A stretch of 64,000 nt of DNA from Neopestalotiopsis rosae (taxonomy: Eukaryota; Ascomycota; Sordariomycetes; Amphisphaeriales; Sporocadaceae): the NCBI GenBank assembly GCA_023078685.1, contig JALGAS010000004.1, positions 1,364,001 to 1,428,000 on the forward strand, given 5' to 3'. Both the position numbers and the translations under genes were made by a program. Shown in pieces: positions 25,740-58,855 of this stretch; the first letter of the stretch is position 1, and each line of letters opens with the position of its first letter. Below the pieces are notes generated by a model that saw only the letters and a program-made list of their open reading frames with translations, was not told where the DNA came from and did no database searches.

Positions 25740-26498
25740 TTACGCAGAAGCTATTTCCTGTATAGTCTTATAAAACTGTGCCGGATCATGAGCAAACCGG
25801 CCCAGGAACAACCCATCGACGCCACCCTTTAGCTTTTCGAATAGGCCAGGTCCAGCACTACCTCCATACAATATCCTCGTCGTACCACTTCTCCTCTGCA
25901 CACAATCCAGCGCGCGGATATCCTTCACCACACTGACCACATACTCTGCCGCAGCAGGGCTGGCGGCGCCAATCGCCCAGACGGGCTCGTAGGCGAGTAT
26001 GACTTCAGCGCCGTCGGGCACAGCCGCCATGACGCTCTCGAACTGCGCGCGGCACTCGTCCACGGCGAGCGCCACCTCGCCCTGGCTGCGCTCGCCGATG
26101 CAGACGAGCGGGATCATGCCGTTGCGGGCCGCGGCCGCGGCCTTGCGCGCGGCGTCGTCGTCCGTCTCCTTGAAGATGCGGCGGCGCTCGGCGTGGCCCA
26201 GCTCCACGATGCGGCACCCTACCTCGGCGAGGACCTGCGGCGATACCTCGCCCGTGTACGCGCCCGCGTCTTCGTAAAAGGCGTCTTGCGCACCGGTGAG
26301 AATCTTGGTGTGGTCGAGTTGGCCAATAACCGATGTCAGAGTAATGTGGTCCGGGATAATGAAAACGTCAACCTCATCTAGCAATGCCGGCGACTTGGAC
26401 ATTAGCTGAAGGATTTCCTCGACGAATTGCTTGGTTCTCGCTGCAGAGAAGTACATCTTTGTGGACACGCCCACAAGCCGGCGTCGAGGAGGGGTCAT
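25740..26498 (-). CDS. Triosephosphate-isomerase-like protein, probable erythrulose-phosphate isomerase
   Basis: Single exon, 252 aa, TIM-barrel aldose-ketose isomerase. All three catalytic residues are present: Lys14 (STKMYFS), His102 (ELGHAERR) and Glu171 (LAYEPVWAIG). The phosphate loop is LYGGSAGPG (about 210-218). It departs from housekeeping TIM at the N-terminal NWKMN-type signature (Asn replaced by Thr) and at SERR, which is AERR here. This pattern is seen in the TIM paralogues of tetritol catabolism: EryH/TpiA2 of Brucella, LerI of Mycobacterium and EYI1 of Yarrowia. Those enzymes convert L-erythrulose-1-phosphate to D-erythrulose-4-phosphate. The position, 0.66 kb downstream of an RpiB homologue in the same direction and near a DhaK-type kinase, supports that role by inference. 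A lack of introns and very G/C-rich codons set it slightly apart. The housekeeping TIM is presumably elsewhere. Confidence 0.9.
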   Translation of the reverse strand: MTPPRRRLVGVSTKMYFSAARTKQFVEEILQLMSKSPALLDEVDVFIIPDHITLTSVIGQLDHTKILTGAQDAFYEDAGAYTGEVSPQVLAEVGCRIVELGHAERRRIFKETDDDAARKAAAAARNGMIPLVCIGERSQGEVALAVDECRAQFESVMAAVPDGAEVILAYEPVWAIGAASPAAAEYVVSVVKDIRALDCVQRRSGTTRILYGGSAGPGLFEKLKGGVDGLFLGRFAHDPAQFYKTIQEIASA

Positions 26499-27162
26499 TT
26501 TGGTGGGGAGGCTTCTGTACAGTAATGACCACTGTCTTCCGGGCGAAAGTAAAGGAGAATAGTAAGTGTATACACCTTCTCACACTATGAGAAGGGTTAA
26601 AACATGAATTTGTTCTAAGAGGACTTCAAGGTACAAGTGAATGGCAGAGATAGGGTCGTATAATTTACGGAAGAGCGGAAATGTGATGAACTTATTCTCA
26701 CGTTCCTCTACTAGCGCTATGAACTGGGCTAAAGTCAGTGGAGCTTGGTAGGTGGATCACCTGTAACGTGGTTACTGTACCTTATGTCCTTATATGTTGA
26801 GTTGTGGACACGATACCGAACCAATACGTATGGGTCGTATCTGCGTACGACTCAACTGCTATCGTTTGGAAAATATGCTGCAAAAAAATCAACTGAAATG
26901 TGAATATCCGCTGACCTGGTGGCTTTTCTGCGATGATACGCGCAAGACATCATATTAAAAGCTATACTGGCGGTTAGTGAGTGAGGCACCGACTATAGCC
27001 GTGTAGAACATCCCTGGCGCGCTTTTTAAAACTATTGTTTGTTCAAGAAGTCTTTGGTTAAAGCAATCTATTGTGCAACCTTTCCGTCGGGCTCGAAATG
27101 ATGCCAGAAGAGACGAATACATAGACGCTATCTAGAGATTCATTTCAACTTGTCAAGGGCGC
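26499..27162. promoter_or_regulatory. Promoter region of the TIM-like gene
   Basis: This region lies between the TIM-like and RpiB1 genes, both on the minus strand. The word GGGTCGTAT occurs twice, at 26653-26661 and 26832-26840. The second copy is part of the inverted repeat GTCGTA-N6-TACGAC (26834-26851). These are candidate regulator sites upstream of the TIM-like gene. No gene is seen. Confidence 0.45.
26834..26851. promoter_or_regulatory. Inverted repeat GTCGTA-N6-TACGAC
   Basis: Six-base perfect arms with a six-base spacer, about 340 bp upstream of the TIM-like start codon. One arm, with its GGG prefix, recurs at 26653-26661. The binding protein is unknown. Confidence 0.4.
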
Positions 27163-27723
27163 CTAGGCTGCCAACTCAACATGCTCGTACTCGGTGATGG
27201 CGTCGACCTTTGCTGCACTGGCGCTGTTCGGGTCAAATTGGTACCCCAACCATTCCTTGGCCAGCTTCCGTGCCAACTCTATACCAATCACTCTCTCGCC
27301 CATGCAGAGCACCTGGGCGTTATTGCTCAGCACAGCTCTTTCCACCGAGAAGCTATCATGTGCTGTGACGGCGCGGATGCCCTTGACCTTGTTTGCTGAG
27401 ATGGCCACTCCAAGTCCCGTTCCGCAAATTAATAGTGCTCTATCGCATCTGCCCTGGGCGACAAGTTTGGCAGCATCAACCGCGCGGTGTGGATATGCCG
27501 TCTTGTCGTCTGTTCCGTGGCTGCCAACGTCCGTTACCGATTCGACGCGCGGGTCGCTTTCAAAGTCGGCCTTGATCTTGTTCTTGTAACTGACACCTGC
27601 ATCCTGGAAGGTATTAGAGTTTCGTGCCCGTACTCGTAGTGGTAGACGGAGAAAGCCAGAAGAATTCTCAATTGCCTGACTTACATCGCATCCCACGGCG
27701 ATTTTCCACTTTGGTGTTGCCAT
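27163..27723 (-). CDS. RpiB/LacAB-type sugar-phosphate isomerase, copy 1
   Basis: Ribose-5-phosphate isomerase B family enzyme. Minus-strand exons 27723-27685 and 27603-27163 give 159 aa. The 81-nt intron (GTAAGT...CCAG) is a multiple of three and open, so an unspliced reading adds 27 foreign residues. Splicing joins GCD to DAGVSYK and restores the family N terminus (compare [10 protein letters not shown] in copy 2). Catalytic Cys73 is in [19 protein letters not shown], and His95 is in [25 protein letters not shown]. The family interconverts phosphorylated aldoses and ketoses. In tetritol pathways (EryI, DerI, EYI2) it makes D-erythrose-4-phosphate from D-erythrulose-4-phosphate. It is head-to-head with kinase 1 (28538) and upstream of the TIM-like gene. 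The substrate is inferred from context. Confidence 0.93.
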
Positions 27724-28537
27724 GGCTCTGAAATCTTGTTCTGGTTCTAGCTGAGGTAGGAGGATTGTTCACGATGCTTGAGGATCTGACTTTGCCAAAT
27801 GAATTAAAATATTACTAAGTTAAAAGATACGGTCGGGCTGCAAGCAACAATATTATGTGGCGTGACGTTTCTTAGCTCTAACCATGAGCATAACATCAGG
27901 TAACTGCCCTGCATATTATTCTATCTGGCTGTCCGGTTGCCGGCAACCATGATCACTTCCCATCCCTCACCTCATCACACTTGCCGCTTCCTCCCCTCAA
28001 TCGGTGATCCGAGCGATTGGCAAGAAGGTACCTAATCTATTGCCAACCAGGACCTCGTGTCGCGCAGCATCAGTCCATTCACCCACCCCCGCCCTTGACC
28101 ATCCCCCAACCGAAGCGGAACTGCTGCAACGGGGGCATCACACATCATCACTTCCGGTTCGATCGCCCCCCCTTACAAACCCCCAAAGGTCATCCGGATC
28201 AGCGACAGCAAACTACCTAGACTACGCTCCACTAACTCTAGTCGCACATGCTAATCACAGTCTGGGGTGCAGTTTTGGGGAAATAACTTCAGACGCTACC
28301 CCTCCATAAATGGGAACGGCGTTCGCTTCTTCTCCACAAACTCCTCCACTTGCTGACGCCTAGAACCCGAACCGTTCCTTCTACATAGTACCTTTCGGAT
28401 TGCCGAATTAGGAAACCCGCGAGCTTGTAAGTCGATAGTACCGACACCAAACGGCGACTTATACATGAACACCAAGAAATTGTCGACAAAGAATTGAAGA
28501 CAGAATTTGAAACAACAATACAGAAGCATTCAGCAAC
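27724..28537. promoter_or_regulatory. Divergent promoter, RpiB1 / kinase 1
   Basis: An 814-bp shared upstream region. It contains the perfect 14-bp palindrome GGTTGCCGGCAACC at 27935-27948. The half-site GGCAACC recurs in the LtnD-like/aldolase 1 promoter at 32539-32545. No gene is seen. Confidence 0.5.
27935..27948. promoter_or_regulatory. 14-bp perfect palindrome, candidate operator
   Basis: GGTTGCCGGCAACC reads the same on both strands and has a central CCGG. It lies about 210 bp from the RpiB1 start and 590 bp from the kinase start. The embedded CCG/CGG triplets are the type of half-site bound by Zn2Cys6 dimers. The function is inferred. Confidence 0.45.
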
Positions 28538-30388
28538 ATGTCGAACCGCCATATCTTTGGGTCCCCCGATGGACTTGTCAACAAGTGTATCAAGGGGATC
28601 ATAGCTTATAACCCAGCCCTCAGCCTAGACGAGGAGAATCGTGTCGTGATCAATACAGAATATGACAAATCAAAAGTCTCTCTTGTCAGTGGTGGCGGTT
28701 CAGGACATGAGCCGGCTGTAAGAGGTTTCCAATTTCTTTCACCAAAAAGTCAATTATAATGCTCACACAAGGACAAATGCTGATCAATTCAATTACAGTG
28801 GTCTGGATATGTAGGCGAAAACATGCTTGCCTCGTCCGTGGCCGGAGACATCTTTGCCAGTCCTAGTACCAAACAGATCTTGGCTGCCATAGACGCCGTA
28901 CCTTCGGACAAGGGCACCATTCTAGTCGTCACAAACTACACCGGAGACTGCCTGCATTTCGGCTTGGCAAACGAAAAGGCTATTGCCAAAGGTCACAACT
29001 GCCGCATGATCATCTGTGGGGATGATGTCTCTGTTGGCAGAAAGGGAAGCCTGGTGGGACGCCGCGGTCTGGCTGGTCAACAGGGCGTATTGAAGGTCAT
29101 GGGCGGCGCCGCCGGAGCTGGCGAGTCCCTCGACGATGTCTACGATCTTGGGGTCGCATTCTCGGACCAGATTGTCACCATTGCTGCCACTCTGGATCAC
29201 TGCCACGTGCCGGGAAGGACAGAACATGGCACACTTCAGAGCGATGAGATCGAGCTTGGAACGGGACCACACAATGAGCCTGGATACCAAAAGCTCTCAC
29301 CAGTACCAACTCCAGAAGAACTCGTAAAGCGTATTCTCCTGTATTGCTTGGATGAGACCGACGAGGACAGAGGCTACGTCAAGTTTGGAAAGGGCGATGA
29401 GACCATGCTTCTCGTCAGCAATTATGGTGGTATCTCATACCTCGAAATGGGTGCTCTTGTCGACGAGCTGCTTGAACAGCTGGCCCGGGACTGGAACATT
29501 GAGCCTATCCGTGTAGTCTGGGGCACTCTTGAGACATCCCTCAATGCGCCCGCGTTTTCAGTATCAGTCGTCAACATGACAGCGGCTGCCAAGAACTGCA
29601 AATACTCCACAGACGACATCAAGAAGTTCTTCGACGTTAGGACAAATACGTCTTGGGAATCCATGACCGGTTCGCAAGCGAAACGTCGTAGCCGTCGTGA
29701 GCAGATTGCTAAGCCTATTCCGCATATCAAGAAAACAGTTGACGACGCCAAAGATCTCAAGATTGACCCAAAGACACTGGAATCCATGCTCCGCAAAGCA
29801 TGCAACAACATTATTGAATCAGAGCCCGATCTTACCAAGTGGGATACTATCATGGGCGACGGTGACTGTGGTGAAACCTTGAAGACAGGCGCACTGAATC
29901 TTTTGGCTGCGCTTGATTCCGAGAAGCTAGCAGCAAGCGGCTCAGTGGTGACAGTGTTACAAGAGCTTGAAGAGATTGTCGAAGGAAAGATGGGCGGCAC
30001 CCTTGGGGGTATTCTTGGCATCTTCTTCGTCTCTCTGCGGACCGCATTGGAGCAGAATATTGACCAAGGCACCGGGTCTGAGGGCGTTCCCGAGCTGTGG
30101 GGCAAAGCGCTCAATGTTGCTCTGGGTAGCCTGCGAAGATATACACCGGCTGGAGAAGGCGACAGGACAGTCATGGATACATTGATTCCATTCGCACGTG
30201 TTTTGTTGTCGAGCGGTTTTGACAAGGCAGTCGAGGCTGCTGTCCAAGGTGCTGAGGCAACCAAGGACATGAAGCCCAGACTTGGACGTGCGACATATCT
30301 TGGCGAGAATACGAGCAGAGACTCTGTCCCTGACCCCGGTGCCTGGGGTGCTATGGTTGCGATCAAGGGACTCAAAGAGGGCATGTAG
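28538..30388 (+). CDS. DhaK-DhaL type ATP-dependent ketose kinase, copy 1
   Basis: Dihydroxyacetone-kinase-family enzyme (DAK1/DAK2 in one chain), which phosphorylates short ketoses such as dihydroxyacetone, erythrulose or glyceraldehyde. Exons 28538-28717 and 28799-30388 give 589 aa, the usual length. The DhaK domain (about 1-340) has SLVSGGGSGHEPA, ASPSTKQI, TNYTGD (Asp110), the ALDHCHVPG-like TLDHCHVPG, and GPHNEPG, whose His218 matches the covalent substrate-binding His. A basic linker (about 350-385) leads to the DhaL domain with KWDTIMGDGDCGET (Mg-ADP aspartates 414/416) and GDRTVMDTLIPF. The ending, DPGAWGAMVAIKGL, is typical. It faces RpiB1 across a shared promoter. By analogy with EYK1, LerK and DerK the substrate may be erythrulose. 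Plain dihydroxyacetone kinase activity is the main alternative. Confidence 0.95.
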
Positions 30389-30590
30389 ATATCATAGGGA
30401 CGGCGAGATTGTCATACTTAATTAATGCTTTTCGATGGACTGGCAACGCGATTTTACTTGTAAGATATGCTATTAATAATAATCTGACAATGGTACCAAT
30501 AATTGCACTGAGTGATCTGTGTGATAAGTTGAAATGCACAAAGTGTGAATTATTATTCGTGTCTGCAAATGCTACTTGATTATGCTGAAA

Positions 30591-31919
30591 TTATACTCCC
30601 CAGACTCTGACTACCTGTCCCCAGGTGGCTTCCGGGGCCGTCTTTGGCCTATGGGACAATGCTAATCTCGAAATGTTCAAAGCCTGGCTGCCCAAGAATA
30701 CCGGAACCTTGAGCCGTTGTGCCTCATCTACCGCATCCTGCAATTCTTGCGTGAGCTTGGGCAAGCTCTCCGTGCCTTGTGGTGCACCCGCAGCGCCAAA
30801 GACACCCAAGATCTCGGGGCCACTCTTGTCCAGCATGACGCTGCCGCCTGCCGCATTGACACACAAATCCATGACCTGGTCGAGATCGAGCCCGAGGCGC
30901 TTCGCAAAGGCCAGGCACTCTGCGGCGGAGCACAGGTGGATGCCCCGGAGCAGGTTCACGACCAGCGCCAGCTTTGCCTCCTCGGTCTGCGCCGTGGCGG
31001 CCACGGGTCCCACCTTGCCGACGCCCTCGGTGTACACCCTGATCATGCCGCTGTCGTCGTCGGGGCCGTAGCCCTTGCCCAGGCCGGCAAAGTAGACCTG
31101 CTCCGCGGCGCTGGACAGGGGCGTGGGGAACCCGACGCGCCGCGCCTCGGACGTGATGATGCTCGTGTCCTTGAGGATGATGGTCAGGGCGCTGGCCAGG
31201 GGCTGGAACTGCGGGTGCAGCATGCGCGGGCTCCGGTTCTCAAACATCCAGCTCCTGCCCTCGGACTTTAGGATCGCCTCGGCTGTCTTGGGCAGGTCCA
31301 GCCCCAGGTGGCTGGCGAGGCCCATGGCCTCGCTGCCGGCCAGGATCTGCACGGCGGCCAGCACCTGGTGCACCATCTTGAGGTTGCTGCCGGCGCCCAC
31401 GCCGCCCTTGACGATGTACAGCTTCTTGGGGTCGGACATTTCTTCGAGCAGGAACCTCGTCTGCTCAATGGCCGCGTCCGCGGCGCCGGCCATGATGGAC
31501 AGCGTGCCGTCGGCAGCGCGGTAGGTTCCACCCGAGACGGGGGCGTCGACGAGGACAATGTCCTCCCGGCCCAGCGTCTTGAGCTGCTCCGTCAGCCCCT
31601 GCACGTACGAGCTCGGCACGGTCGAGCACAGCAGAATCGCGGCGCCCCTGGAGAGCGACGGCAGCGCTGGACTGTCGCCCTCAATGAGAACCGATTGGGC
31701 CTGCGCCGCGGTGGCGACCATGCAGACGACATAGTCCTTGCCTTTGACCGTTTCTGCGGGTGTGGTTGCTGCGAGACCACCTGCGTCCTTGAATTTGTCG
31801 AGAGTTGGTCCCCAGACATCGAAACCAGTAACATTATAGCCTCGCTTCACCAGATTGGTGGCCATTCCGAAGCCCATGGCTCCCAGGCCAATAAACGCGA
31901 TATCTGGTTTTGAAGTCAT
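30591..31919 (-). CDS. 3-hydroxyisobutyrate / L-threonate dehydrogenase-like protein with two C-terminal domains
   Basis: Single exon, 442 aa, beta-hydroxyacid dehydrogenase family. The Rossmann domain starts with IAFIGLGAMGFGMA (8-20). The substrate signature is VDAPVSGGTYRAADGTLSIMAG (124-145), and catalytic Lys181 is in GVGAGSNLKMVHQ. After the first all-helical domain (about 175-300) a second similar domain follows (about 315-425: KLALVVNLLRGIHLCSAAECLAFAKRLGLDL). The chain is therefore about 140 residues longer than bacterial 3-HIBADH or LtnD (about 300). LtnD-like enzymes oxidise 2-hydroxyacids such as L-threonate. A plant protein fuses two such units to a DUF1537 kinase and a class II aldolase. 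Here the aldolase is the divergent neighbour, and no DUF1537 gene is in the window. The true substrate is unknown. Confidence 0.9.
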   Translation of the reverse strand: MTSKPDIAFIGLGAMGFGMATNLVKRGYNVTGFDVWGPTLDKFKDAGGLAATTPAETVKGKDYVVCMVATAAQAQSVLIEGDSPALPSLSRGAAILLCSTVPSSYVQGLTEQLKTLGREDIVLVDAPVSGGTYRAADGTLSIMAGAADAAIEQTRFLLEEMSDPKKLYIVKGGVGAGSNLKMVHQVLAAVQILAGSEAMGLASHLGLDLPKTAEAILKSEGRSWMFENRSPRMLHPQFQPLASALTIILKDTSIITSEARRVGFPTPLSSAAEQVYFAGLGKGYGPDDDSGMIRVYTEGVGKVGPVAATAQTEEAKLALVVNLLRGIHLCSAAECLAFAKRLGLDLDQVMDLCVNAAGGSVMLDKSGPEILGVFGAAGAPQGTESLPKLTQELQDAVDEAQRLKVPVFLGSQALNISRLALSHRPKTAPEATWGQVVRVWGV

Positions 31920-32989
31920 GATTATATCGATTATATTGGTCGTTTCGGTATAGTAGGCCAGAACACGGGTTTTTCAAAGTTGTGCTTGAAAATGCTACCC
32001 GTTTATGAAGTCTTGTGTTTGAAAACAGAATTGAATTCCGACTGCTTTTCTTTGCTATCCACATACAAAAGAAAATGGGAACATGATGTCGATTCTACCT
32101 GAATATGTGCCTGGCCCGACCCAAATAGTCAACCCGCAGTCCACCCCATACATGGCAAAGTCTCAATCCGCCCCCCACGCAAGTGACCAGTGGAATTCGA
32201 CGCAGGACGCTACTATTCGGTACTATTAGCCCGTACTCAGCAAGAAATGGTAGAATGCCGCTCGGCTCATTCCCCCGAACCGATCTCGGGGCTCCGTCAT
32301 GATTTTGGGCCCCTTCCCCGCTCGAAAATGGAGCTCCACATGCCGTTGAACATTGGATTTCTCGATTTCTCCTCAGCTCGTTTCGTTTTAGCCGGGAATA
32401 ATGACCGTGGGCAAAGTTCCTCTTTTTCTACGTTCGTCATATGCCGTATGTAGATGATTAATAGGCCATTGATTCTTGCCCACACCCCGTCAAGTGATAA
32501 AAGGCTATTTCGCCCGAACATGCCTTACCCCCAAAACAGGCAACCCGGCCGATCGTGAGCATCACAGTGGTGCGCTTACATGCCAAACACGCCCGTACTA
32601 ATCCACACAAGCTCTGAAAAGGAACATGCCTCTAAACGCTTCGGGGTATCAGTGCATCGGCATTCCGGAGCGAAGTCCAGGTTGTCAGTACCGATTTCCT
32701 GCCTATGCAAGTTGGGTCCATAGTATTATAGTGGATCGTAGGTTGGGGAAATCACCTCCCATGACGTGAATTATCCAATGTCGCTGAAGCTATTCGCGAC
32801 CAAGAAGAATACTTCAAACACATGCTGGAAATACATTTCATGTCAATTGCCTGACCTGATCGTCATTCTTATACTTCTTGCCCAGGTACTGTCAGTGCAC
32901 TTAAGACAAGAAATACAGGTTTCACACTAAACTCTGACATCACATCCCACTTATACAAATCCCAAAGACCTTCAAACCCATCTCATACC
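31920..32989. promoter_or_regulatory. Divergent promoter, LtnD-like / aldolase 1
   Basis: About 1.07 kb shared by two oppositely oriented metabolic genes. It contains GGCAACC followed by CGGCCG (32539-32551), matching half of the palindrome at 27935-27948. No gene is seen. Confidence 0.5.
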
Positions 32990-33856
32990 ATGCCGCGCCC
33001 ACCCCTCTCCCAGAACCGTTCCCTGGCCATACTCAAGGCGGCCCGCGAGGGCGGCTACGCGGTGCCCGGCATGTGCTGCTACAATATGGAATCAATAATC
33101 GCCACCGTGCGCGCCGCCGAGGCTGCCAGGTCGCCGGCCATGGTGCTCCTGTTCCCCTGGGCCATGCAGTACGCCGACGAGGCGCTGGTGCAGGCGGCAG
33201 CCAGCGCGGCCCACAACGCCAGCGTACCCGTCTCCCTACACCTGGACCACGCGCAGACTCCGGAGCTGGTGCGCCGCGCCGCCGACATCAAGGACGCCTT
33301 TGACAGCATCATGTGCGACATGAGCCACTACGAGCGCGAGGAGAACCTGCGGCTCACCTCGGAGCTCGTGTCGTACTGCCACGAGCGCGGCATCGCCGCC
33401 GAGGCCGAGCCGGGCCGCATCGAGGGCGGCGAGGACGGCGTGGCCGAGACGGCGGACCTCGAGGGCCTGCTCACCACGCCGGAGGAGGCCCAGGTCTTTG
33501 TCGACACGGGCATCGAGATGCTGGCGCCGGCGTTTGGCAACGTGCACGGCGAGTACGGCCCGCGCGGCATCCGCCTCGAGTACGACCGCCTCGAGTCCAT
33601 CAACCGGGCCGTCGGGGACAAGGTCTTCCTGGTCCTGCACGGTGCCGACCCCTTTGACGAGGAGATCTTTACCAGGTGCATCAAGGCCGGCGTGAGCAAG
33701 GTCAACATCAACAAGGGCATGAACAAGCACTACGCCCGCGTCCAGGAAGAGATGCGAGGAAAGCCTCTGACCAGCGTCATTGAGGCGGGTACCGATGCCA
33801 TGCAAAAGGCGATTGAGCAATATATGCACTGGCTAGGAAGTGCCGGCAAGGCCTAG
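32990..33856 (+). CDS. Class II (zinc) ketose-bisphosphate aldolase family protein, copy 1
   Basis: Single exon, 288 aa, FbaA/GatY/KbaY family (PF01116). It cleaves ketose phosphates to dihydroxyacetone phosphate plus an aldehyde. Visible motifs are PGMCCYNMESI near the N terminus, LHLDHAQ with catalytic Asp86 and zinc His87, AEPGRIEGGEDG (141-150), FGNVHGEYG with His186, and VLHGAD with His217, followed by KVNINKGMN. Length fits the short GatY-like branch rather than fungal fructose-bisphosphate aldolase (about 360 aa), so it is not the glycolytic enzyme. It is clearly paralogous to the gene at 49865-50814. It is head-to-head with the LtnD-like gene. The substrate is unknown. A phosphorylated tetrose, pentose or tetronate derivative is possible. 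Confidence 0.93.
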   Translation: MPRPPLSQNRSLAILKAAREGGYAVPGMCCYNMESIIATVRAAEAARSPAMVLLFPWAMQYADEALVQAAASAAHNASVPVSLHLDHAQTPELVRRAADIKDAFDSIMCDMSHYEREENLRLTSELVSYCHERGIAAEAEPGRIEGGEDGVAETADLEGLLTTPEEAQVFVDTGIEMLAPAFGNVHGEYGPRGIRLEYDRLESINRAVGDKVFLVLHGADPFDEEIFTRCIKAGVSKVNINKGMNKHYARVQEEMRGKPLTSVIEAGTDAMQKAIEQYMHWLGSAGKA

Positions 33857-34458
33857 ATAATCATTTTTATGAATATGTATTTCATTGCAGATGTCGTCTG
33901 CCATCTTATTCAACCCACTGCCTAATGGTGTGACCGTCGTACTCGCCTCCTGGCCGGAGTGTTGAGGTTTTGGAGAACTGCAAGCCAAGTTCGAAAGTCA
34001 GGCGACGATCATCGACCAATATGGGGCTCAACATGTATTGAAGGAATATTAGAGTGAGGAGTCCCATTGGGAGTGATTCGTTCGTGTGATGAATCCTCAC
34101 GGTGCGAGGCTTCATCCAGTCATAGCAGAGAGACTGAAGGAAAAGGGTCACTGGATTTGTGGACGAGATATATTACAGTCTGAGCATACTCGGGGGTTTC
34201 GCCGGTCTAGTATAACTTTCCTTGCAATATCTACATGTCCTCAGCAGTGCAGAACAGTGGTCTCCACGTACAAGGCCGTAAAAGTTTCAAATTTTGCCTA
34301 TTCGATTATTCAATCTTGTGCTGCGATTAATATGGAGTCGCAGACACAGCAAATGTCCGCCATATACGCGCTCACACATGCGCCGACTGAGCTTATTCTA
34401 TTCGTACATTCCGTCCAGAGAAATTCCATGTTCTGTGTTGACCGCAAAATACGTAGTC
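33857..34458. other. Convergent 3' region after aldolase 1
   Basis: No gene is seen. This is the boundary between sub-cluster A and the housekeeping block. Confidence 0.45.
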
Positions 34459-46564: not shown

Positions 46565-47943
46565 GATGAAGATTGACTGATGAGTTTGTTATTCCAAGCG
46601 AAAGAGAGTGAAAAAGGAGGTTGATGAAAATTGAAGGTAAGACGACACGGGATCTGACAGGCCTCTTGTATCCCTTTTTTAAGGTTTGAAGGTGCAGCTG
46701 CAAAGTCTCCTTGCTCTTCTTGTCTTCTTGTTTATTCCAATTCAAGACCCAAGGAGACGGTACGCCAGGGGGAGTTATATAACCAAACGGTCTGCCCTAT
46801 CGTGACGCCGCTTACCCCAGGTTGATGCCGTCAACGTCCGAATGTGGAATGTTGCCCTTCAATTGGTAGTACGTAGTAGTGTTAGACCCAGGTTTAGGCA
46901 AATGGAGAAACTTGGGACAAGAGAAAGCCAAGTTTCTCTCCCCCAGCCTTGGGAGCCCACGCCAGACCAGCTTCTCCACGCAATCTTGTTCGTTTGGGGT
47001 ATCTAGTGCTCTCCACAATGGGGCCTCCACGTTTTGACTAGACAAATCAGGCGCTCTCGTGGTCCTCGTCCAGACCCAGCCGGAATGGCTCGGGGCAAAA
47101 CGAGATTGTGCTCTCGTGTGATGGCTCGACGCACAGAAGGGGGCCGCGACGCGGTCATTTCAGCCCAGCAGGAAATAATAATGGCCTTACCATCAGCTGA
47201 CGTAGACTAGTCTTTTCCAGAACGGTGCGGCAATTGCAACGGTGGTAGTTAGCAAAAGCGCGTCTCGCGGCACCCCCGGCTCCTGTTCAGGTTCAGCCCA
47301 GGAACGGGTGTCGGGGGTCATTGTGTGTAAGTGGTTCGTCAGCCGCAACCATTACCCCGGACGTCCGACCCCGAGGCGCGGCACTATGCCTTACCTCAGC
47401 AGCAAGCGGAGCCCCGGACGGAGTCGGTGGAGTATGTCCCTCGTGAGTGGACTAGGCTTGGATCTTTGGTGCCATTCTTCTGGACTTTCTTCCGCTTCTG
47501 GAGCCCTATAGCCAGAAGAGACCCTCCCTGCCTCTCGCGAGACGATGTGCGATGACGCCAAGGATCTCCGCAAGTCGTCTGCCGTGCGCAGAGTAGAGGT
47601 TTTGAGAGGGGCACAATGTACGGCATCGCGTCTTGTACTGCAACTATAGTGTAGTCGATCCCCCGCAACGCGCTTTGAGGTCGCCAACCCCGGAATGCGC
47701 AGAGGGGGGGAAAAAAGTTAAGGGAAGAAAGTAGATCCCCCGAGAGTGCGACCGATGCGATCCGGGCTCATGGTATTCTTTAAAAGGCCATGTCCTCCAT
47801 TGTTTTTATGATTCTTCTTTTGCACTACATACCAGCTATTGCTTCACTTATTGCCATCTCATTGCAGCTCCTCGCTCTTCTTTACCAAGTCTTCTTTTTA
47901 TACTTTCGAGACTTTTCACTCTCAACCACTTATATCCTTCAAG
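46565..47943. promoter_or_regulatory. Divergent promoter, MFS / SDR
   Basis: 1.38 kb without a gene. It has TTATATAA near 46773, about 205 bp upstream of the MFS start. It also has CGAGGCGCGG at 47372-47381, the core of the repeat found twice in the aldolase 2/RpiB2 promoter. The pre-SDR leader (about 47800-47940) is pyrimidine-rich. Confidence 0.5.
47372..47381 (+). promoter_or_regulatory. CGAGGCGCGG motif, copy in MFS/SDR promoter
   Basis: A ten-base match to the core of the direct repeat at 51607-51620 and 51730-51743, in the same orientation. Being GC-rich, it could occur by chance; one coding copy is at 31140-31149 on the other strand. Confidence 0.35.
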
Positions 47944-48940
47944 ATGAGCCCCTCCGCAGAAGGTTCCGCCGCCCCCTCTGGCGCCGTTGACAACTACCCT
48001 TCCACTCTGCCTGGTCCCAACCACAACTGGAAGATTACTCTCGAGGGCAAGGTCATTGCCAGTAAGTTGAATCTGCAGCACTTGCTATCGCCTATGGCCG
48101 AGGGAACTTTTAACTAACATTGATTTACCCTAGTCACTGGTGCCAACCAAGGTATTGGTCTCGGCCTCGCACAGGTCTGCCTCGCCAACGATGCCGCCAA
48201 GGTCTTCTCCCTCGACATCCAACAACCCGGCGACGACTTTGCCGCGCTGGCCAAGCTGCACCCAGGCAAGCTCGAGTTCGTGCAGACGGACATCACCAAA
48301 GAGGAGTCGGTCAAGAGCGCCATTGACGAGGTGGCCACGCGGGGAGGGCGCTTCGACGGCCTCATCGCCAACGCCGGCGCGACCAAGCACCTTCCCGCCC
48401 TCGACTTCACCCTGGAGCAGTTTGAGCGCCTGTACAAGCTCAACGTGACGGGCAGCTGGCTGTGCGCCACCTACGCCGCCCGCAAGTTCATCGAGCTCAA
48501 GACCAAGGGCTCCATCGTCTTTACCGCCTCCATGACCTCGTACCGCCCCAACCGCGCCGCCCCCTCGGCCCCCTACGGCGGCACCAAGGCCGCCGTCCGC
48601 AACATGACGCACACCCTCGCCATGGAGTGGGCGCAGTACGGCATCCGCGTCAACAGCATCTCCCCCGGCTACGTCAAGACGGCTCTTACATACTACGTCG
48701 AGTCTTCTCCCGACTGGGTAAGCAGAACCTCCACAAATTTCTCCATAAACATTCTATTTTACAGAAGTGCTAACATGTTTTGCGCGCAATCAGGACCTCA
48801 AGATGAAGTACTACGGCGGTATGCCCCGTCTGGCTCTCCCGCAAGAGCTGGGTGGTGCCTACGTCTACCTGCTGTCCGAGACGGCCACATACACGACCGG
48901 TATCGATATCCCCATTGCCGGTATCGTCGGTGGCTGGTAA
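47944..48940 (+). CDS. Short-chain dehydrogenase/reductase, polyol/ketose type
   Basis: NAD(P)-dependent SDR in the cytosol. Exons 47944-48061, 48134-48717 and 48794-48940 give 282 aa. The cofactor motif ITGANQGIGLGL (40-51) follows a ~35-residue N-terminal extension typical of fungal sorbitol/arabinitol-type enzymes (WKITLEGKVI). An acidic residue, FSLDIQQ, after the second strand favours NAD(H). NAG is at LIANAGATKH, the catalytic Ser is in TASMTSY (172-175), and Tyr187 and Lys191 are in APYGGTKAA. The end, ETATYTTGIDIPIAGIVGGW, is the common fungal polyol-dehydrogenase finish. It is the best local candidate for a tetritol-to-erythrulose step like EYD1 of Yarrowia, with specificity inferred only. 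It shares a promoter with the MFS carrier. Confidence 0.93.
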
Positions 48941-49864: not shown

Positions 49865-50814
49865 CTACGCCGCCTTGCCGGTGGAACCCGTGACATCCAT
49901 CTGCCACTCCATGAGCTTCTGGATGGCGTTGGTGCCGTCCTCCATGAGCGTCGTCAGGCTCGTGGTGGCGGCCTTTTCCTTGATGTACTTGAGGTAGTCG
50001 TCGAGCACCAGCTTGTTGACGTTGATCTTGCTGCAGCCGCCCTTGATGCAGGCCCGCATCACGTCCTCGGGGAAGTCGTTGGTGCCGTGCAGCACGATGC
50101 GCACGCGGTCCGCGGCCTTGGTGCGGATCATGTCCAGCCGGTCGTACTCGAGCACGGGGCCCCGGGCGCCGTACTCGCCGTGCACGTTACCAAAGGCGGG
50201 GGCCAAGAAATCAATGCCCGTCGCGATAAAGTCCTCGACCTGGTCCGATGTAGTCAATGCCCCCTCGAGATCGGCCGTGTCGGCGATGCCGTCCTCGCCG
50301 CCCTCGATCCGGCCCGGCTCCGCCTCGGTGCAGATCTGGTGCTCGTTGCAGTACGCGACCAGCTCGCGCGTCTTGGCCAGATTCTCCTCCATCTCGTAGT
50401 GGCTCATGTCGACCATGATGGAGTCGAAGGGTAAGTTGGCCGCAGCGTGCCGGATCAGCTTCTCGTCCTGGGCGTGGTCGAGGTGGATGGCTACCGGCAC
50501 CGAGGCCTCGCGGGCGGCTTTTGCGGCGGCGTGGATCAGGAGTCCATTGCTATAGGTAATCGCCCAAGGGAAGACTTGGAGGATGAGAGGTGCCTTTTTG
50601 GCTTCTGCGGCCCGGATAAAGGCCAGGATACACTCAATGTTGTAGCTGTAAATTTCAAAGGTGTCAATTGTGCCGGCTCAACTGCTTGATCTTGCAAAAT
50701 GCAAAGTGAGCATATCGGGATGTCTGCTTACGCGATGGGTGCGACAACACCGTAGCCGCCCTTGTCAGCATCCGAGAGGATCTTGTAAGTCGTATTCGTC
50801 TTTTTCCACTCCAT
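49865..50814 (-). CDS. Class II (zinc) ketose-bisphosphate aldolase family protein, copy 2
   Basis: Minus-strand exons 50814-50732 and 50645-49865 give 287 aa. The 86-nt intron interrupts the conserved N-terminal APIA/YNIE segment. Motifs in order are IHLDHAQ with Asp84 and zinc His85, DSIMVDMSHYEMEENLAKT, AEPGRIEGGEDGIADTADLEG, APAFGNVHGEYG, IVLHGTNDF and SKINVNKLVLDDYL. It aligns without gaps over most of its length with copy 1 (32990-33856) and is roughly half identical by eye. Differences around the substrate end (TNDFPEDV against ADPFDEEI) suggest different aldehydes or phosphates. It is divergent from RpiB2, with a promoter that carries a direct repeat. The substrate is unknown. Confidence 0.93.
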
Positions 50815-51606
50815 TGTATTTTCGTGTCTTTTTCTCAACTTTCAGATTCGTTTTGGGGGGAAATTGCAAGACAGGTCAGAAGGACGTCTAGTCTGAAAGA
50901 GCAGTATACAGCAACTTGAGATGGGTCTAGAACAGAATAGTGGGTGACGCCTCCAATTTTCTTTTTCGACGTTTTGAATGCAGAGCTGAAAATGAAGAAT
51001 CGTCAAGTCAAGTGTTCATACAGAAAATGCAAAGTGCTCGTAGGTAATGGAGATGCGAAATGACAATGATTTCATTGGGTCTGTATTCCGAATTGAGCAA
51101 GCCAGAGCAGATGCGCGTCTCTTTCCCTCTTCTGTACCTTGCCGCGAAGACCGCGACACCATGACGCTTTTTTTTCTTTCTTGAACTCGCCTCGTCACGA
51201 ACACCAACTTTTTCCCTCTTTTTTTCTTTATTCCCTTCAATGAGGGGCATCGTGCATTCGCTGCATCTCTCTGTGTCTCTCTCCATCTCCACCGCGGGGT
51301 TCCGTTCTCAGTCTGGCGTTGGAGTAACCCATGCTAAGCTACTACTTTAGATCCCGTCCCCCATGGCTTCCCCGCATAGGGCGTTTGGGGAGAGAGAGAC
51401 CTCGCTTCTGGTACCGCGACTCGCGGTCATAAAGCCCCCGGTCATGTTGCCAGTAAGCGCGGTCTATAACGAGGCAGGGATGGGCATTTTATTCCATAAA
51501 CAAGGTCTCGATGCGCGGAGGCAGTCGACTAAAAGAGAATAATGCCCCTCGTATACTTGCTCTTTATGAAAATGGCCTGCGGAATAATGCCATATGAGCC
51601 CATTGT

Positions 51607-51620
51607 CACGAGGCGCGGAC
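51607..51620 (+). repeat. Direct repeat CACGAGGCGCGGAC, copy 1
   Basis: An exact 14-base match to 51730-51743. Including flanks, ATTGnCACGAGGCGCGGAC is shared (19 positions, one mismatch). Candidate regulator site. Confidence 0.6.
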
Positions 51621-51729
51621 ATACTCCTCTGCACTTCTATGCACTCAGGGTCCTCTTCACGCGGGGGAAAGACGCCATTTTCGATAATGTGTTGCGAAGA
51701 GCAAGTACATAGACGTAGTGCACAATTGG

Positions 51730-51743
51730 CACGAGGCGCGGAC
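51730..51743 (+). repeat. Direct repeat CACGAGGCGCGGAC, copy 2
   Basis: Second copy, 123 bp downstream in the same orientation and about 290 bp from the RpiB2 start. See copy 1. Confidence 0.6.
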
Positions 51744-52032
51744 GAACACGGTACATTGTACATCTTGTATGGGCCCCGGACTTGATCTATATTGAGCCTG
51801 GATCTTAAATCTTGGAGACCCATGACCTAGGAGACATCGCGTCGCGTTTTATTTCTCCAAATCGTGAATATCGTCACTCGGCTCCGAGAAGTTGTGAAAG
51901 TTTTCCATCTTGTTCTTCTCCCATTTCATTTACATCTTCAAACTACACATACGGCGATTTCTGTATAGCACGGAATTTCTCATTCGTCACGTACTATCCC
52001 CCTTCATCCACACATACCTCATCATAGAAAAC

Positions 52033-52615
52033 ATGGCCGCAGTCCAGAAGCTCAGAATCGCCATCGGCGGCGACGACGCCGGCTTCGACTACAAGGCCAG
52101 GCTGGCCCAGGACCTGTCCGCCGACCCCCGCGTGTCCGAGGTCATCGACGTCGGCCCCGCCAGCGCCGCCGACAAGACGGCCTACCCCCTCTTCGCCATC
52201 GCCGCCGCCGAGCTCGTGGCCAGCGGTAAAGCCGACCGCGCCCTGCTCATCTGCGGCACGGGGCTCGGCGTCGCCATCAGCGCCAACAAGGTCCAGGGCG
52301 TGCGCGCCGTGACCGCCCACGACAGCTTCAGCGTCGAGCGCGCCGTGCTGTCCAACGATGCCCAGGTCCTGTGCCTTGGCCAGCGTGTCATTGGTATTGA
52401 GCTGGCTAGGCGGTTGACCAAGGAGTGGCTTGGCTACACTTTCGATCCTGTAAGTTTTGCAGCGGCCCATTTTGGTGTCTGGAGACACTTCAGCACATGA
52501 AACAAATTTACCGAATGTATTGGACTAACAAACTTGTCAGCAATCCGCATCCGCGGCAAAAGTAAAGGCGATCAACGACTACGATGCGAGGGGTGCTCCA
52601 GCCGTGGCAGTATGA
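52033..52615 (+). CDS. RpiB/LacAB-type sugar-phosphate isomerase, copy 2
   Basis: Exons 52033-52449 and 52541-52615 give 163 aa. The family fold is shown by [31 protein letters not shown], catalytic Cys74 in [19 protein letters not shown], and [37 protein letters not shown]. The C terminus [14 protein letters not shown] is completed by splicing. It is about 60 per cent identical by eye to copy 1, but its only intron is near the 3' end while copy 1 has its intron at codon 13. The duplication is therefore not recent. It may serve the opposite stereo-series from copy 1, as DerI and LerI-linked enzymes do in Mycobacterium. That is inference. Housekeeping ribose-5-phosphate isomerase in fungi is normally RpiA-type, so neither copy is needed for the pentose pathway. 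Confidence 0.94.
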
Positions 52616-52780
52616 GAATGGATATGGACACAAGACATGAACGAATTGATTTTGAGCGATAGAGCCATGAAAGAGTAAAACATAAAATAGATCCTTTGAA
52701 TAATAAACTTTTGGAAGCCAAAATCCCCTGGGGTATCATCCGTTGTATATACGATCAATGTTATACAGTGTAACATGTCA

Positions 52781-55400
52781 TCATTTTGCCCATTCGGCCA
52801 GAAGATCTTTCTTCATCGAGGCCATCGGCCAGCCTGTTCGCATTTCACAAGCGTCTATCAATGATAGAATAACATTGCGTTTGTCGGTATCTTGCACGCA
52901 AAGTCCAGCTGCGTCAGAGTTAGCCAGACATCCATGGAAGAGCAGAGATTTAAGGGCACGAACCTCCAAACAGACACTGCGCGGACATGATCTGGCTACC
53001 TTCATCGCGTAGCTCCATGGCTATTCCGCAAATAGTGGCAACAGCTTCTGAAAGTGTTTTCTGTCATGAACATCCATTAGATTAAGTGACTTCCAAATAA
53101 GTGATTTGTTGGCGACTAACCTGAGTTCTCAAATATCCATCAAAGCCCGAGGCGGCCGGACGGTGAAGAGTAATTAGTATACACGCAAAGCTGTAAATCT
53201 GGAGCGCAACACCATATTTTGGTGGATGAATCCAGAGAGGCTGGAATACGCTGTCGGGATTGGGGTCTGCTGTCGGTAGAGGCTGGAACAAAGGCCCGAG
53301 ATACATCTTCCAGCGCTCGAGTTCTGTAATCAGTGCCTCGCCGATGCGGATTCGTTTTGCCGTCGTGTCCGGTTCGGTTGGCGTTGGATCCCACTTTGAG
53401 CAGTAGTTGACTGTCTGCGACAGCAGGTATACTACGCGATCCGCAAGTTCATCTTGGTTTAAATCGCAGTAGTCTTTAAGCGGCCTCCAAAAAGAGAAAC
53501 ATCTCCTTCGTTCTCTAGTAACCTTGATATCAGCACATGTAATAGTCGCAAATTTAGTGAGGGCTCATAATACCTGAAGGCTGCCCAAATATCCTGACGA
53601 AGCCATGCCCACCACACAGACTGTCGCAGTCCACCGGAGGCGCCATTCACGTCTTGTGAACGTTGAATCCAAAAGACGCCCTTTAAATGACGTTTCCAAT
53701 TCGTATCTGAGGAATCGAGCATTTCGTAGGTGGAGATGACCACTGTAGCGCATTAGCGGGATCGTCCCTTTTTCTCTTCTTGTTTTCTTGGCAAAATTGG
53801 GCCACTTACATGCAGTGCCAAGCAGCTCCTCCGAATGTGTATATGAATTATACTGCAGAGCATTCTGCAAATAGTGCAACGTTTCGTAGTAGTACTGTAC
53901 GGCCACACTTGAATCTCTAGTGATGCCTACATTCGCCTCGGATATTTCTCTATGTCGTGCGCACAGTGCCTAATTGCCCGAATCATGTCAGTTTCTGTGT
54001 TTGTGTAGATACAGCAGGGATGTGCAAGTGCCTACCAGTATAGCTTTCATCAATCCTACATTCCGCAGCTACCATCCTTGTCAGCATGTGATGGAGAGTT
54101 GTTCGAATTGAAAGAAGTACTGACTGCCAAGCGCGTCGCATAACTAGAGAAATGTCTTCGAGGGTCAAAAATGTCAAGCTACAGACATGACACAAGTCAG
54201 CTTCGCAAGTCGGGCCATTGGACCTAGGGGATATGATAACTTACCCAAAGACTTGCTCTTTCAGCAAAAGTGCGAAACAGGGTTGCCTCATAGCTTGTCT
54301 GAAAGATACAAAAACGTTAGTCTCTCTCGTTGAGACATGATTCGTTGTTCAGGTCCAGTGTATGCAGGTTTCAAGGATGTTTTACTCCAACATGTACAGT
54401 TTAGGCAAGTAGCCCAGGGATCCTTCTGCAGCAAAAGAGACATTTATAGTAATACTGGATGCTCTTGATACTTACAAGCACAATATCTCGATTCAGTGAC
54501 CAAGCATGTCGTTCCACTGCTTGATTTGCTAGCGGTGCCGGTATTGAGACACTCCCGGAAATAGGTTGATTCTCTGTTCCTATGGGTTGAGACTCATGTC
54601 CCGTGTTCGACACCGAGTCTTCGGGGGCAGGACTCGGCGCAAGGGAGAATCCAGCATCTGCCTGGGCGGCATCCGTGGCTAACAGATCTAGCCATCGGTT
54701 CGAGGCCATATCCGTAGTCAGCAGCTCCGACGCCACCGTGTCCGGTGAGTAGGCATACTGGTAGGCCTCGGCCAGGGGTATGGTCGAAGGTGGTGGCGGA
54801 GGAGGAGGAGGCTGCGGCTGCTGTAGTGGTACATCTACCGGAGACGGATATAAATTGCGTGGACTTGGTCCTGCAGGAGGAATAGCAGAGTGCGGTGGTA
54901 TCTCTGGTATCGTTCTGGGAATGTCTACTTCCCTCCGCGACGAAAAGTTGAGCGTCGGAGAGGATGTCTTGGCCGGCTGAGTCACCGGACTCTGCTTGAC
55001 CTGCTGGCTTGGCTGACCATCTGAGGATGGACTTGGTCCCTGATCACCATAGACACAGTCCCGGCTGGATATAGAACAAGGGCCACATACGGGCACTATC
55101 ATAGTTTTTCTGCAATTAGGTTTACGATACTAACACTTGGGCAAAGTTGAGCATACCTCTCTCATCACATTTCTTGTCTATACAGGCAATATCTTGTTAG
55201 CCTAGCAGACTCTTCAACGCCCCACTCGTTGCTTGATAGTGATCGATTGGGGATTGGTGTAAGCACTTACGTCTCTTGCGACACGTGAGGCACCCAGTCT
55301 TGGTGCGCAGACCTCGAGATCTCGACTTGCGTATCCTCTTTGGCTTTGCAGGCTTTGCTCCCGTGGTGACACCCGGGGCCGGCGCCTCGGTCGGCTCCAT
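52781..55400 (-). CDS. Zn2Cys6 transcription factor, candidate cluster regulator
   Basis: Eleven minus-strand exons: 55400-55271, 55177-55157, 55095-54476, 54298-54245, 54178-54125, 54068-54036, 53969-53810, 53742-53574, 53514-53121, 53060-52964 and 52908-52781. All are in phase, giving 619 aa. The zinc cluster is assembled from three exons: CLTC, RKRHKKC, DERVPVC, GPC and SISSRDC, a perfect C-x2-C-x6-C-x6-C-x2-C-x6-C. A basic N-terminal segment (KPKRIRKSRSRGL) precedes it. A Pro-rich region with an eight-proline run follows (about residues 130-150). The regulatory domain shows TSYEATLFRTFAERASLW, LDIFDPRRHFSSYATRLA, MKAILALCARHREIS and HLKGVFWIQRSQ, as in Fungal_trans_2-type factors. It is head-to-head with kinase 2 inside sub-cluster B, so it is the natural pathway activator candidate. 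The 33-nt exon 6 is the least certain. Confidence 0.88.
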
Positions 55401-56715: not shown

Positions 56716-58855
56716 ATGTCTGATAAGCACTTCTTTCCAGAGACGGCTGTAAGTCAAAGTCATACATTCCTATATTCGTCCATGTCGTTGTTGTCCACCT
56801 TGGGTTGCGCTGCACTAGCATGACTTTGCATCTTCAAGACCCCCCAGTTTCATATTACATCATGCGCAAAAGCGATCGCACACCTCACCTTTACTTTGCT
56901 AACTTGTGTGTCTTGTTCTTTCCCAGGCCAACACCTTGGTCCCCCGGTACCTGAGGGCCTTGACGGCAGCCAACCCCCATCTCGGTCTCATCGACTCCGA
57001 ACGAGTAGTCTTTTCGAAAGAGAATGATCCCAGCACAGTATCGATCATCAGCGGAGGTGGTTCAGGCCACGAGCCCGGCTGGTCGGGGTTCGTCGGCGAC
57101 GGCGCATTGTCGGCAGTCGCTTGCGGTGACATCTTTGCCTCTCCCAGCACAAAACAGGTTCTGGCAGCAACAAGGGCCGTGCCATCCAACGAAGGAACCA
57201 TTTACATGATCACAAATTACACTGGTGACAAGCTGCACTTTGGTCTGGCCGCCGAGCGGGCCAAGGCAAGTGGTCTTTCCAAAAATGTTGCCGTTATTCC
57301 ACTCACAGACGATGTGTCCCTGGGAAGGACCAAGTCTGCCGTTGTGGGAAGACGAGGCATGCCTGGTCATGTCGTTCGTAAGTTCGGCCTAGCATTTCGA
57401 ATTATGTTGGAAATTGCACTATGCTGACATGTATCCCTTAGCCATGAAAATTGTCGGAGCTGCCGCCAAGAAACACGGCTTCCAAAAGTGTGTCGACATT
57501 GCCAAGGCCGTCAATGCCCAGGTTGTCTCGATTGGTTCCGCCCTGGACCACTGTCACGTTCCCGGTCGGGCCAAGCACGAGACCCTTCCGGCAGATGTGG
57601 TTGTGGTTGGCGCCGGCATTCACAATGAGCCCGGCGCTCAGAGACTCAGCCCTTTCCCTCCCGTGGAGGACCTTATTGCGTACTGCCTGAAGCTCCTCTG
57701 CGACCCCAACGATGCTGAAAGAGCATTCGTGAAATTCAACAAGGACGACGAGGTTGTGCTCGTAATCAACAACTACGGTGGCCTGTCCAACCTGGAGCTT
57801 GGTGCTCTGACAGACGAGACCATCATCCAGCTAGGTCGCACATGGAACATCAGGCCAGTGAGGATATTGTCCGACGCATTCGAGACGTCGCTCAACGGCC
57901 CCGGTTTTTCCATTTCTCTCTGCAATCTAGCCAATGCTTCCAAGGAATGCTCGACAAGCGTGAGCGAACTTCTCGAATTTCTCGACCAAAAGACGAGCTG
58001 TGTAGCTTGGCCCAATGTTGTGAGATCTTTCAAAGAGACGACCGCCTCGCCATCGGATATTCTCGCTGCAGCTGCAGAGGAAAAGCCAAAACTCTCAGCA
58101 GATAGCGACATCAAGGGTAAGCATCTATAAGAATCTGCCGTTTGTGTGAAAAGTTCTAACCAAGACACAGTCGACCCAAGTCTACTCGACTCGATAATCC
58201 GGACAGCATGCAAAGCAGCCATTGCTGCTGAACCCAAACTCACGCAATGGGACATGATCATGGGTGACGGCGACTGTGGAGAAGCAGTGCAGGGTGTATC
58301 GGAGAGTAAGTCATGCGACATGAATATGTTCAAACCTTTCCATAAACTAATCCGGACGGAACAGGTATCATCAAGACTTTGGACAATGGCATTGCCAAGG
58401 AAGGCTCCGTTCTATCCTTCCTCTTCTCGACAACAGAAGCCGTCGACGATATGGGCGGCAGTCTCGGCGCCATCCTAGGCATCTTGCTCTCGGCCTTTAC
58501 CTCGGCCCTCCAAGACAACGTCAAGGCCAACGGCGGCGCCGCCGACGCATCGACGTACGCGCAGTCGCTGGCGCAGGCCGTGACCGCGCTCAAGAACTAC
58601 ACGGGAGCCCGCGAGGGCGACCGCACCGTCATGGACGTTCTCATCCCGTTTGCCGACGCCTTTGCGCAGAGCAGCGACTTTCACGGCGCCGTGCAGGTGG
58701 CGCACACCAAGGCCGAGGGCACAAAGTCCCTCAAGGCCAAGTTTGGCCGCGCGAGCTACGTGTCCGAGGCCGAGGGCCAGGATATCCCGGACCCCGGCGC
58801 CTGGGCGTTCTACGAGTTTGTGGCCGGCATGTCGAAAGCCATCAAGGGGCAATAG
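56716..58855 (+). CDS. DhaK-DhaL type ATP-dependent ketose kinase, copy 2
   Basis: Exons 56716-56748, 56927-57377, 57442-58116, 58171-58305 and 58365-58855 give 594 aa. The DhaK domain has TVSIISGGGSGHEPGWSGFVGDG, FASPSTKQVL, TNYTGDKLHF, SALDHCHVPGRAKH and GAGIHNEPGA, whose His (about 222) is the covalent substrate-binding residue. The linker is followed by the DhaL domain with WDMIMGDGDCGEAVQG, DDMGGSLGAILGILLSAF, GAREGDRTVMDVLIPFAD and DPGAWAFYEF. All ATP- and substrate-binding motifs are intact. It has four introns against one in copy 1, so the paralogues are old or have separate origins. One copy could be the general dihydroxyacetone kinase and the other an erythrulose kinase, or each could serve one enantiomer as LerK and DerK do. 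It is adjacent to and divergent from the Zn2Cys6 regulator. Confidence 0.95.

Follow-up and report, generated by a model that had tools for sequence, protein, structure and literature searches.

The 64,000-nucleotide stretch of the Neopestalotiopsis rosae genome analyzed here (the window, C12:1364001-1428000, in a genome of 53.8 Mb and 17 contigs) carries a split gene cluster that quite possibly, although we hold this with less than even confidence, degrades a small sugar acid to D-erythrose-4-phosphate. Its genes, located with Pfam and a self-trained gene finder, fall into two blocks, within each of which adjacent genes are mainly arranged as divergent pairs. Block A (25.7-33.9 kb) encodes a TIM-like isomerase, the isomerase RpiB1, the kinase DAK1, an LtnD-like dehydrogenase, and the class II aldolase FBA1. 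Block B (44.8-58.9 kb) encodes a major facilitator superfamily (MFS) carrier, a short-chain dehydrogenase/reductase (SDR), and FBA2, RpiB2, a Zn2Cys6 regulator, and DAK2. A preliminary description of the window had put these families at the same places, which Pfam, NCBIfam (for DAK2), an alignment (for RpiB2), and splicing by hand (for the regulator) confirm.

In block A, the LtnD-like dehydrogenase would oxidize an aldonate, perhaps a pentonate, to an oxo-acid, from which FBA1 would release CO2 and free L-erythrulose by a Zn-enediolate chemistry comparable to that of 2-OtnC of the F_bP_aldolase type. DAK1 would then form L-erythrulose-1-phosphate, the TIM-like protein would turn it into D-erythrulose-4-phosphate (a step of the L-series only), and RpiB1 would yield D-erythrose-4-phosphate, which would enter the pentose phosphate pathway. 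A C5 substrate is preferred because all five enzymes of block A would then be used once. Block B would be a parallel arm, with the acid carrier, the SDR replacing LtnD, FBA2, DAK2, and RpiB2; its lack of a TIM-like gene would make it the arm of the D-series. Block A may thus be for the L-series and block B for the D-series, and the gene doubling, with the TIM-like gene in block A only, fits the two enantiomeric series suggested earlier. The substrates, the order of the steps, and the stereochemistry are what we infer from these genes.

The families of the kinase, the TIM-like, and the RpiB-like proteins, their shared motifs, and a replacement of His by Ser all agree with the erythrulose route that had been suggested for this trio. 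In the PDB, the TIM-like protein matches 3s6d first (E 1e-55) and then 11ef, named "L-erythrulose-1-phosphate isomerase" (E 2e-36). Its best relatives on plasmids are 42-44% identical, and the nearest of the other TIM genes of the genome, on contig C1, is 33% identical. It has in common with the TIM-like proteins of five plasmid operons motifs of GVSxKMY, HAERR, WAIG..PA, GGSAGPG, and GRFAH type. RpiB is present in all four annotated plasmid operons with a TIM-like protein, and a dihydroxyacetone (DHA) kinase in three. Both stand beside the TIM-like gene in operons of Arthrobacter FW306, Erwinia, and Pantoea; a Klebsiella plasmid has RpiB and an FGGY kinase near it, and an unannotated Arthrobacter plasmid a DHA kinase and an MFS gene. 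On these motifs, which it shares with the operon proteins, the TIM-like protein is a candidate L-erythrulose-1-phosphate isomerase of the LerI/EryH type. A tree of TIM proteins, with no starred branch and no housekeeping TIM row, was weak and is not relied on. Rhizodiscina lignyota, presumably a Dothideomycete, has a TIM-like protein 82% identical to that of the window, possibly through gene transfer. The structures 3s6d (TIM-like), 3qd5 (RpiB), and 3pm6 (aldolase) we take to be from Coccidioides immitis.

A search of the genome found RpiB at two places, both inside the window, and no third; RpiA is encoded elsewhere, on C1. All eight aligned RpiB rows (RpiB1, RpiB2, 3qd5, 5ifz, and four operon proteins) contain SN[ND]AQ. 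In the RpiB of Coccidioides, Ser109 replaces the conserved ring-opening His and a shorter substrate is suspected (PMC3212906), and both RpiB1 and RpiB2 match it in having Ser at this position; our alignment has no row of a ribose-type RpiB, and the contrast between Ser and His rests on that paper. Loss of the ring-opening His would fit tetrose 4-phosphates because these are unable to close a furanose ring, and is what one would expect for the acyclic C4 substrate of a D-erythrulose-4-phosphate isomerase (DerI/EryI). RpiB1, which passes TIGR02133 of NCBIfam (186 bits for a cut-off of 168), is hence a candidate for this activity, of the DerI type. DAK matches are found in the window and on C16. 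The four DHA kinases of the bacterial operons have the sequence GC[TS]LPGA, against HCHVPGR or HVHVPGR in the fungal kinases, so that what we take to be the substrate-binding His is absent from the former.

Linkage in other fungi was examined for the LtnD-like protein, FBA1, and the TIM-like protein with the best 120 matches of each, identical size of the longest contigs of two matches serving as an indirect sign of linkage. By this sign LtnD and TIM share a contig in at least 39 cases, FBA and TIM in at least 25, FBA and LtnD in at least 25 (24 without one impossible contig of 1690 bp), and all three in at least 13. In ten assemblies, locus tags confirm the proximity, the genes being adjacent or up to four tags apart, as in Neonectria punicea (QQX98_007254, 007255, and 007256, being FBA, LtnD, and TIM); another close pair is jhhlp_003156-003157. 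Because the three genes share contigs or neighboring locus tags in other Sordariomycetes, their grouping in block A is not due to chance. A search with the LtnD alignment returned 80 loci, nearly all of Hyphomicrobiales by their titles.

The LtnD-like dehydrogenase is 41% identical to LtnD of S. meliloti, encoded in an ltnD-otnI-otnK operon, and its relatives outside the window in the same genome are only about 25-32% identical. Its best NCBIfam model is the L-threonate dehydrogenase NF043037 (297 bits). Two NAD_binding_11 stretches represent a second helical domain, and the structure model (pLDDT 89.7) shows six repeated helices; plant LTD likewise carries a repeated LtnD part (PMC12540250). 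On the D-galactonate transporter model TIGR00893 the MFS carrier reaches 204 bits, compared with 24 for the sugar porter model, and the D-galactonate transporter accounts for two of its three matches in the PDB. TIGR00893 gives 271 and 275 bits to the carriers of the Erwinia and Pantoea operons, and the HpaX model about as much. By family, then, the carrier is of the D-galactonate type and not a sugar porter. A sugar acid, mentioned earlier as an aside, is now preferred over erythritol or threitol, given the D-galactonate-family carrier, the proximity of the LtnD-like protein to L-threonate dehydrogenase, and the signature loss in the aldolases described next. The aldolases and the LtnD-like protein, described earlier as extra branches, more probably make up the entry half of the pathway.

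When 21 class II aldolases (9 fungal and 12 bacterial rows) are aligned, the fungal rows form one clade with support of 100/100. The Ser or Thr of the HGxS/T loop and the Thr of NxxT are kept in all 12 bacterial rows and in none of the fungal ones, which have Asp, Asn, or His at the former site and Lys or Arg at the latter. From class II aldolase structures, we take both sites to bind the phosphate of dihydroxyacetone phosphate (DHAP). Given this loss, the fungal aldolases would need no C1-phosphate, and FBA1 would thus act before the kinase. Compared with class II fructose- or tagatose-bisphosphate aldolases, FBA1 keeps the HLDH metal/acid motif, as do all of its best 120 homologs, and lacks both phosphate-site signatures, as do again all 120, which is expected of close relatives. 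A 2-OtnC with an F_bP_aldolase domain is a precedent, whose substrate is a phosphorylated C4 acid (PMC12540250). The single-sequence structure model of FBA1 was poor (pLDDT 48.9) and was not used.

Relatives of FBA1 occur in the genome on C13 and C14, with a weak match on C11. On C13 (C13:4116000-4135999) there is a partly paralogous cluster, with an SDR, an aldolase, and a regulator resembling those of block B, together with an AKR, a sugar-porter-like MFS gene, further SDRs, and an oxidase, some of these names having been assigned by eye; no kinase or isomerase was noticed in the 20 kb read around this aldolase. On C14 (C14:826500-846499), a fourth aldolase of the fungal clade lies beside Ldh_2 and RraA-like genes. 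The aldolase alignment, searched against the genome contig collection, yielded no relative among 106 pattern matches. Among 398 Pseudomonadota genomes, the aldolase profile reached E <= 1e-50 in nine (best 5e-58). In three of the bacterial loci opened, a class II aldolase gene neighbors a dehydrogenase gene, and these loci presumably are sulfoquinovose-type operons; a fourth is, by the same presumption, GatY-like. Sulfoquinovose-type operons were rejected as a model for the cluster, their dehydrogenases being 24-28% identical to the LtnD-like protein, against 41% for LtnD of S. meliloti. Operons with DUF1537 in Deinococcus and Rhodococcus contain an F_bP_aldolase gene; the oxidoreductase of the Deinococcus operon has no match to LtnD, so that a three-step pathway is only partly shown for these operons.

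The regulator, also predicted earlier in block B, reads as a Zn2Cys6 protein once its exons (55400-55271, 55177-55157, and 55095 onward) are spliced by hand (CLTCRKRHKKCDERVPVCGPCSISSRDC); Pfam gave no match for two of its later pieces and the gene finder no model. It is similar to a C13 gene over 52962-53903. The motif CGG-N4-CCG occurs 7 times in the 6,301 bp of the six cluster promoters and 13 times in the remaining 57,699 bp of the window, and none of 2000 shuffles reaches 7 (mean 1.0). It was first picked among 105 patterns, in a scan whose background count was inflated by the overlap of two background stretches (calpain_up and window_rest_A). The sites lie in four of the six promoters, two per block, and are suggestive of a single pathway using both blocks. 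We infer co-regulation, one Zn2Cys6 protein probably controlling both blocks.

Known systems resemble parts of this cluster. Enterobacterial plasmid operons such as those of Erwinia E602 and Pantoea At-9b, which we take to be of the D-apionate type of Carter 2018, have, like the window, rpiB, a DHA kinase, a TIM-like gene, and a D-galactonate-family carrier. Both also include a 6-PGDH-superfamily oxidoreductase plus one more enzyme, which in the operons are a PGDH_C dehydrogenase and an AP_endonuc_2 enzyme and in the window the LtnD-like protein and F_bP_aldolase. The erythritol cluster of Yarrowia lipolytica (EYD1, EYK1, EYL1/EYI1, EYL2, and EUF1, the last a protein of 951 aa; PMC5624910) likewise groups a kinase of the DHA-kinase family, TIM-like and RpiB-like proteins, and a regulator of Zn2Cys6 type. 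In the window this set is doubled, and the LtnD-like protein, two aldolases, and an anion-type carrier are added. The LerK/LerI/DerI module (mycobacterial, and engineered in E. coli; PMC10733421) performs the same reactions from L-erythrulose to D-erythrose-4-phosphate; it is fed by the tetritol dehydrogenase EltD, whereas the window cluster would be fed by the proposed acid-oxidizing pair, and the fungal kinases differ in being of the eukaryotic DAK lineage. The three-step L-threonate pathway (LtnD, 2-OtnK, 2-OtnC) and plant LTD pair LtnD with an F_bP_aldolase-type enzyme, much as the window pairs its LtnD-like protein with FBA1; the cluster, however, lacks the DUF1537 kinase and has lost the aldolase phosphate signature.

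Among other explanations, plain use of erythritol or threitol in the manner of Yarrowia is one that we take seriously while judging it unlikely. The SDR of block B would then oxidize the polyol, the kinases, TIM-like protein, and RpiBs would follow, and LtnD and the aldolases would be accessory. The kinase, TIM-like, and RpiB-like proteins are indeed the Yarrowia set (PMC9835291, PMC5992420), and Trichoderma reesei, also a Sordariomycete, uses erythritol (PMC11210129). However, the partners of the TIM-like protein in relatives are LtnD and FBA1, not the SDR (no search for SDR linkage was made), the carrier is of the anion type, and no aldolase or LtnD is described for the Yarrowia cluster in the available parts of these papers. 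The blocks might instead be two unrelated neighboring gene groups, block B having a different substrate, as the housekeeping genes between them and the recurrence of the SDR, aldolase, and regulator triple alone on C13 would allow; with the same paralogous families and common promoter sites in both blocks, we consider this rather improbable.

Three further schemes concern the acid chemistry itself. It is a little less probable still that the aldolase splits a 2-oxo-aldonate at C3-C4 into hydroxypyruvate and an aldehyde, the latter then being phosphorylated by DAK, with the Lys or Arg at the former phosphate site binding the carboxylate. The replacement of Thr by Lys or Arg in all nine fungal rows, the Ldh_2 dehydrogenase and RraA-like genes beside the C14 paralog, and the cluster without a kinase in the 20 kb read around the C13 paralog are in line with it, but it does not require both the TIM-like protein and RpiB, and in the cluster we noticed no gene for glycerate or hydroxypyruvate. 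We see little chance that L-threonate or erythronate is converted to DHAP in three steps, in bacterial or plant style, with DAK replacing the DUF1537 kinase and FBA1 in the role of 2-OtnC. Such a pathway does pair LtnD with an F_bP_aldolase protein (PMC12540250), and the repeated LtnD-type part recalls plant LTD; yet bacterial 2-OtnC-like rows keep the phosphate signature that FBA1 has lost, the only DUF1537 gene found sits on another contig, and the TIM-like protein and RpiB would be superfluous. Least likely is that the LtnD-like protein alone performs an oxidative decarboxylation to a ketose, like 6-phosphogluconate dehydrogenase, the aldolase acting elsewhere. Its model aligns at full length with 6-phosphogluconate dehydrogenase 2w8z (471 columns, TM 0.73), on account of the second helical domain, and most of its listed homologs have KM[CV]HQ; but the first Foldseek match is the LtnD structure 3g0o, Ala stands where 6-phosphogluconate dehydrogenase has what we take to be its acid Glu, and the linkage to FBA1 would be left unexplained.

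Some observations weigh against a sugar-acid route through erythrulose. Several scores are under curated cut-offs: RpiB1 on the DerI model NF051858 (139 bits for 240), the LtnD-like protein on NF043037 (cut-off of 350), the carrier on TIGR00893 (cut-off of 395), and FBA1 (best 189 bits against 343). The SDR is over no curated cut-off among the 25 NCBIfam models shown, so that, beyond the family (adh_short), its earlier assignment as a polyol-type SDR is at most tentative. DAK1 and DAK2, with their eukaryotic ancestry, share only 25-31% identity with the kinases of the bacterial operons, and the phosphate-binding role of the two aldolase sites is our assumption. Given the single DUF1537 kinase match of the genome, on C3, a genuine threonate route may lie outside the cluster. 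Against the rest of the window, the enrichment of CGG-N4-CCG has a binomial p of 0.0022, which becomes borderline when corrected for the 21 spacers scanned, and the sites are absent from two of the six promoters (TIM; TF/DAK2).

One specific form of the sugar-acid route is more speculative. This would be a fungal path that oxidizes and decarboxylates a C5 aldonate (e.g., L-arabinonate, or the L-xylonate or L-lyxonate formed when ascorbate is broken down) to erythrulose; in it the fungal class II aldolase family would act on unphosphorylated oxo-acids and the two blocks would serve the L- and D-series. A literature search of titles and abstract openings found no paper on such a fungal cluster. 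If this path exists, the structures 3s6d, 3qd5, and 3pm6 would gain a function. More generally, a sugar-acid entry would be added to the erythrulose route, plant-associated fungi could use ascorbate- or pectin-derived aldonates, and there would be a reason why some fungi keep RpiB besides RpiA. An aldolase family named fructose-/tagatose-bisphosphate aldolase in databases despite its lost phosphate-site signature would have a role, and a non-phosphate class II aldolase might be of synthetic use.

Genes and promoters of the two blocks (positions in the window)
Feature	Position	Strand	Evidence or sites
TIM-like isomerase, block A; candidate L-erythrulose-1-phosphate isomerase (LerI/EryH type)	25740..26498	-	Pfam TIM 7.4e-58, PDB match, motifs
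RpiB1, one intron; candidate D-erythrulose-4-phosphate isomerase (DerI type)	27163..27723	-	Pfam LacAB_rpiB 2e-40, TIGR02133, Ser at ring-opening His position
Promoter RpiB1/DAK1, divergent	27724..28537		two CGG-N4-CCG sites: 28002, 28396
DAK1, DhaK-DhaL kinase, one intron; candidate erythrulose kinase	28538..30388	+	Pfam Dak1 4e-80 and Dak2 1.4e-39, gene model, dak_ATP; 3' boundary from the open frame rather than the gene model
LtnD-like dehydrogenase, second helical domain C-terminal	30591..31919	-	Pfam NAD_binding_2 and two NAD_binding_11 stretches, NCBIfam, structure model, Foldseek
Promoter LtnD/FBA1, divergent	31920..32989		two CGG-N4-CCG sites: 32287, 32658
FBA1, class II aldolase, both phosphate-site signatures lost; candidate decarboxylase or non-phosphate aldolase	32990..33856	+	Pfam F_bP_aldolase 6.3e-86
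MFS carrier, D-galactonate (anion) family, model with six exons	44788..46564	-	Pfam MFS_1 2.2e-18, NCBIfam, PDB matches
Promoter MFS/SDR, divergent	46565..47943		two CGG-N4-CCG sites: 47358, 47407
SDR, block B dehydrogenase	47944..48940	+	Pfam adh_short 2.8e-43; paralog on C13
FBA2, second aldolase, fungal clade of FBA1	49865..50814	-	Pfam F_bP_aldolase 4.7e-76
Promoter FBA2/RpiB2, divergent	50815..52032		one CGG-N4-CCG site: 51295
RpiB2	52033..52615	+	gene model, 70% match to RpiB1, alignment
Zn2Cys6 regulator	52781..55400	-	start codon (ATG, 55400) and introns 1 and 2 placed by hand; approximate 3' end (coordinate of the preliminary description)
DAK2, second DhaK-DhaL kinase	56716..58855	+	gene model, NCBIfam dak_ATP 605 bits

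Of the named relatives listed for FBA1, the closest (99% identity) comes from Neopestalotiopsis sp. 37M, whose genus belongs to Sporocadaceae. The DUF1537 (OtnK-type) locus of the genome (C3:571000-590999) has a further dehydrogenase-like gene and an MFS gene nearby. The genes between the two blocks encode a UBR-box protein, MCM2, and a berberine-bridge-type oxidase. Block A is adjoined by genes for a GH3 glycosidase-like protein and a calpain-family cysteine protease (14128-17081 and 18653-21712), and by a fragment of a HET-domain (heterokaryon incompatibility) gene (22999-24276). At 20 kb from block A lies a gene for myo-inositol oxygenase, a sugar-acid-forming enzyme (4640-5666; Pfam MIOX 4.7e-119).

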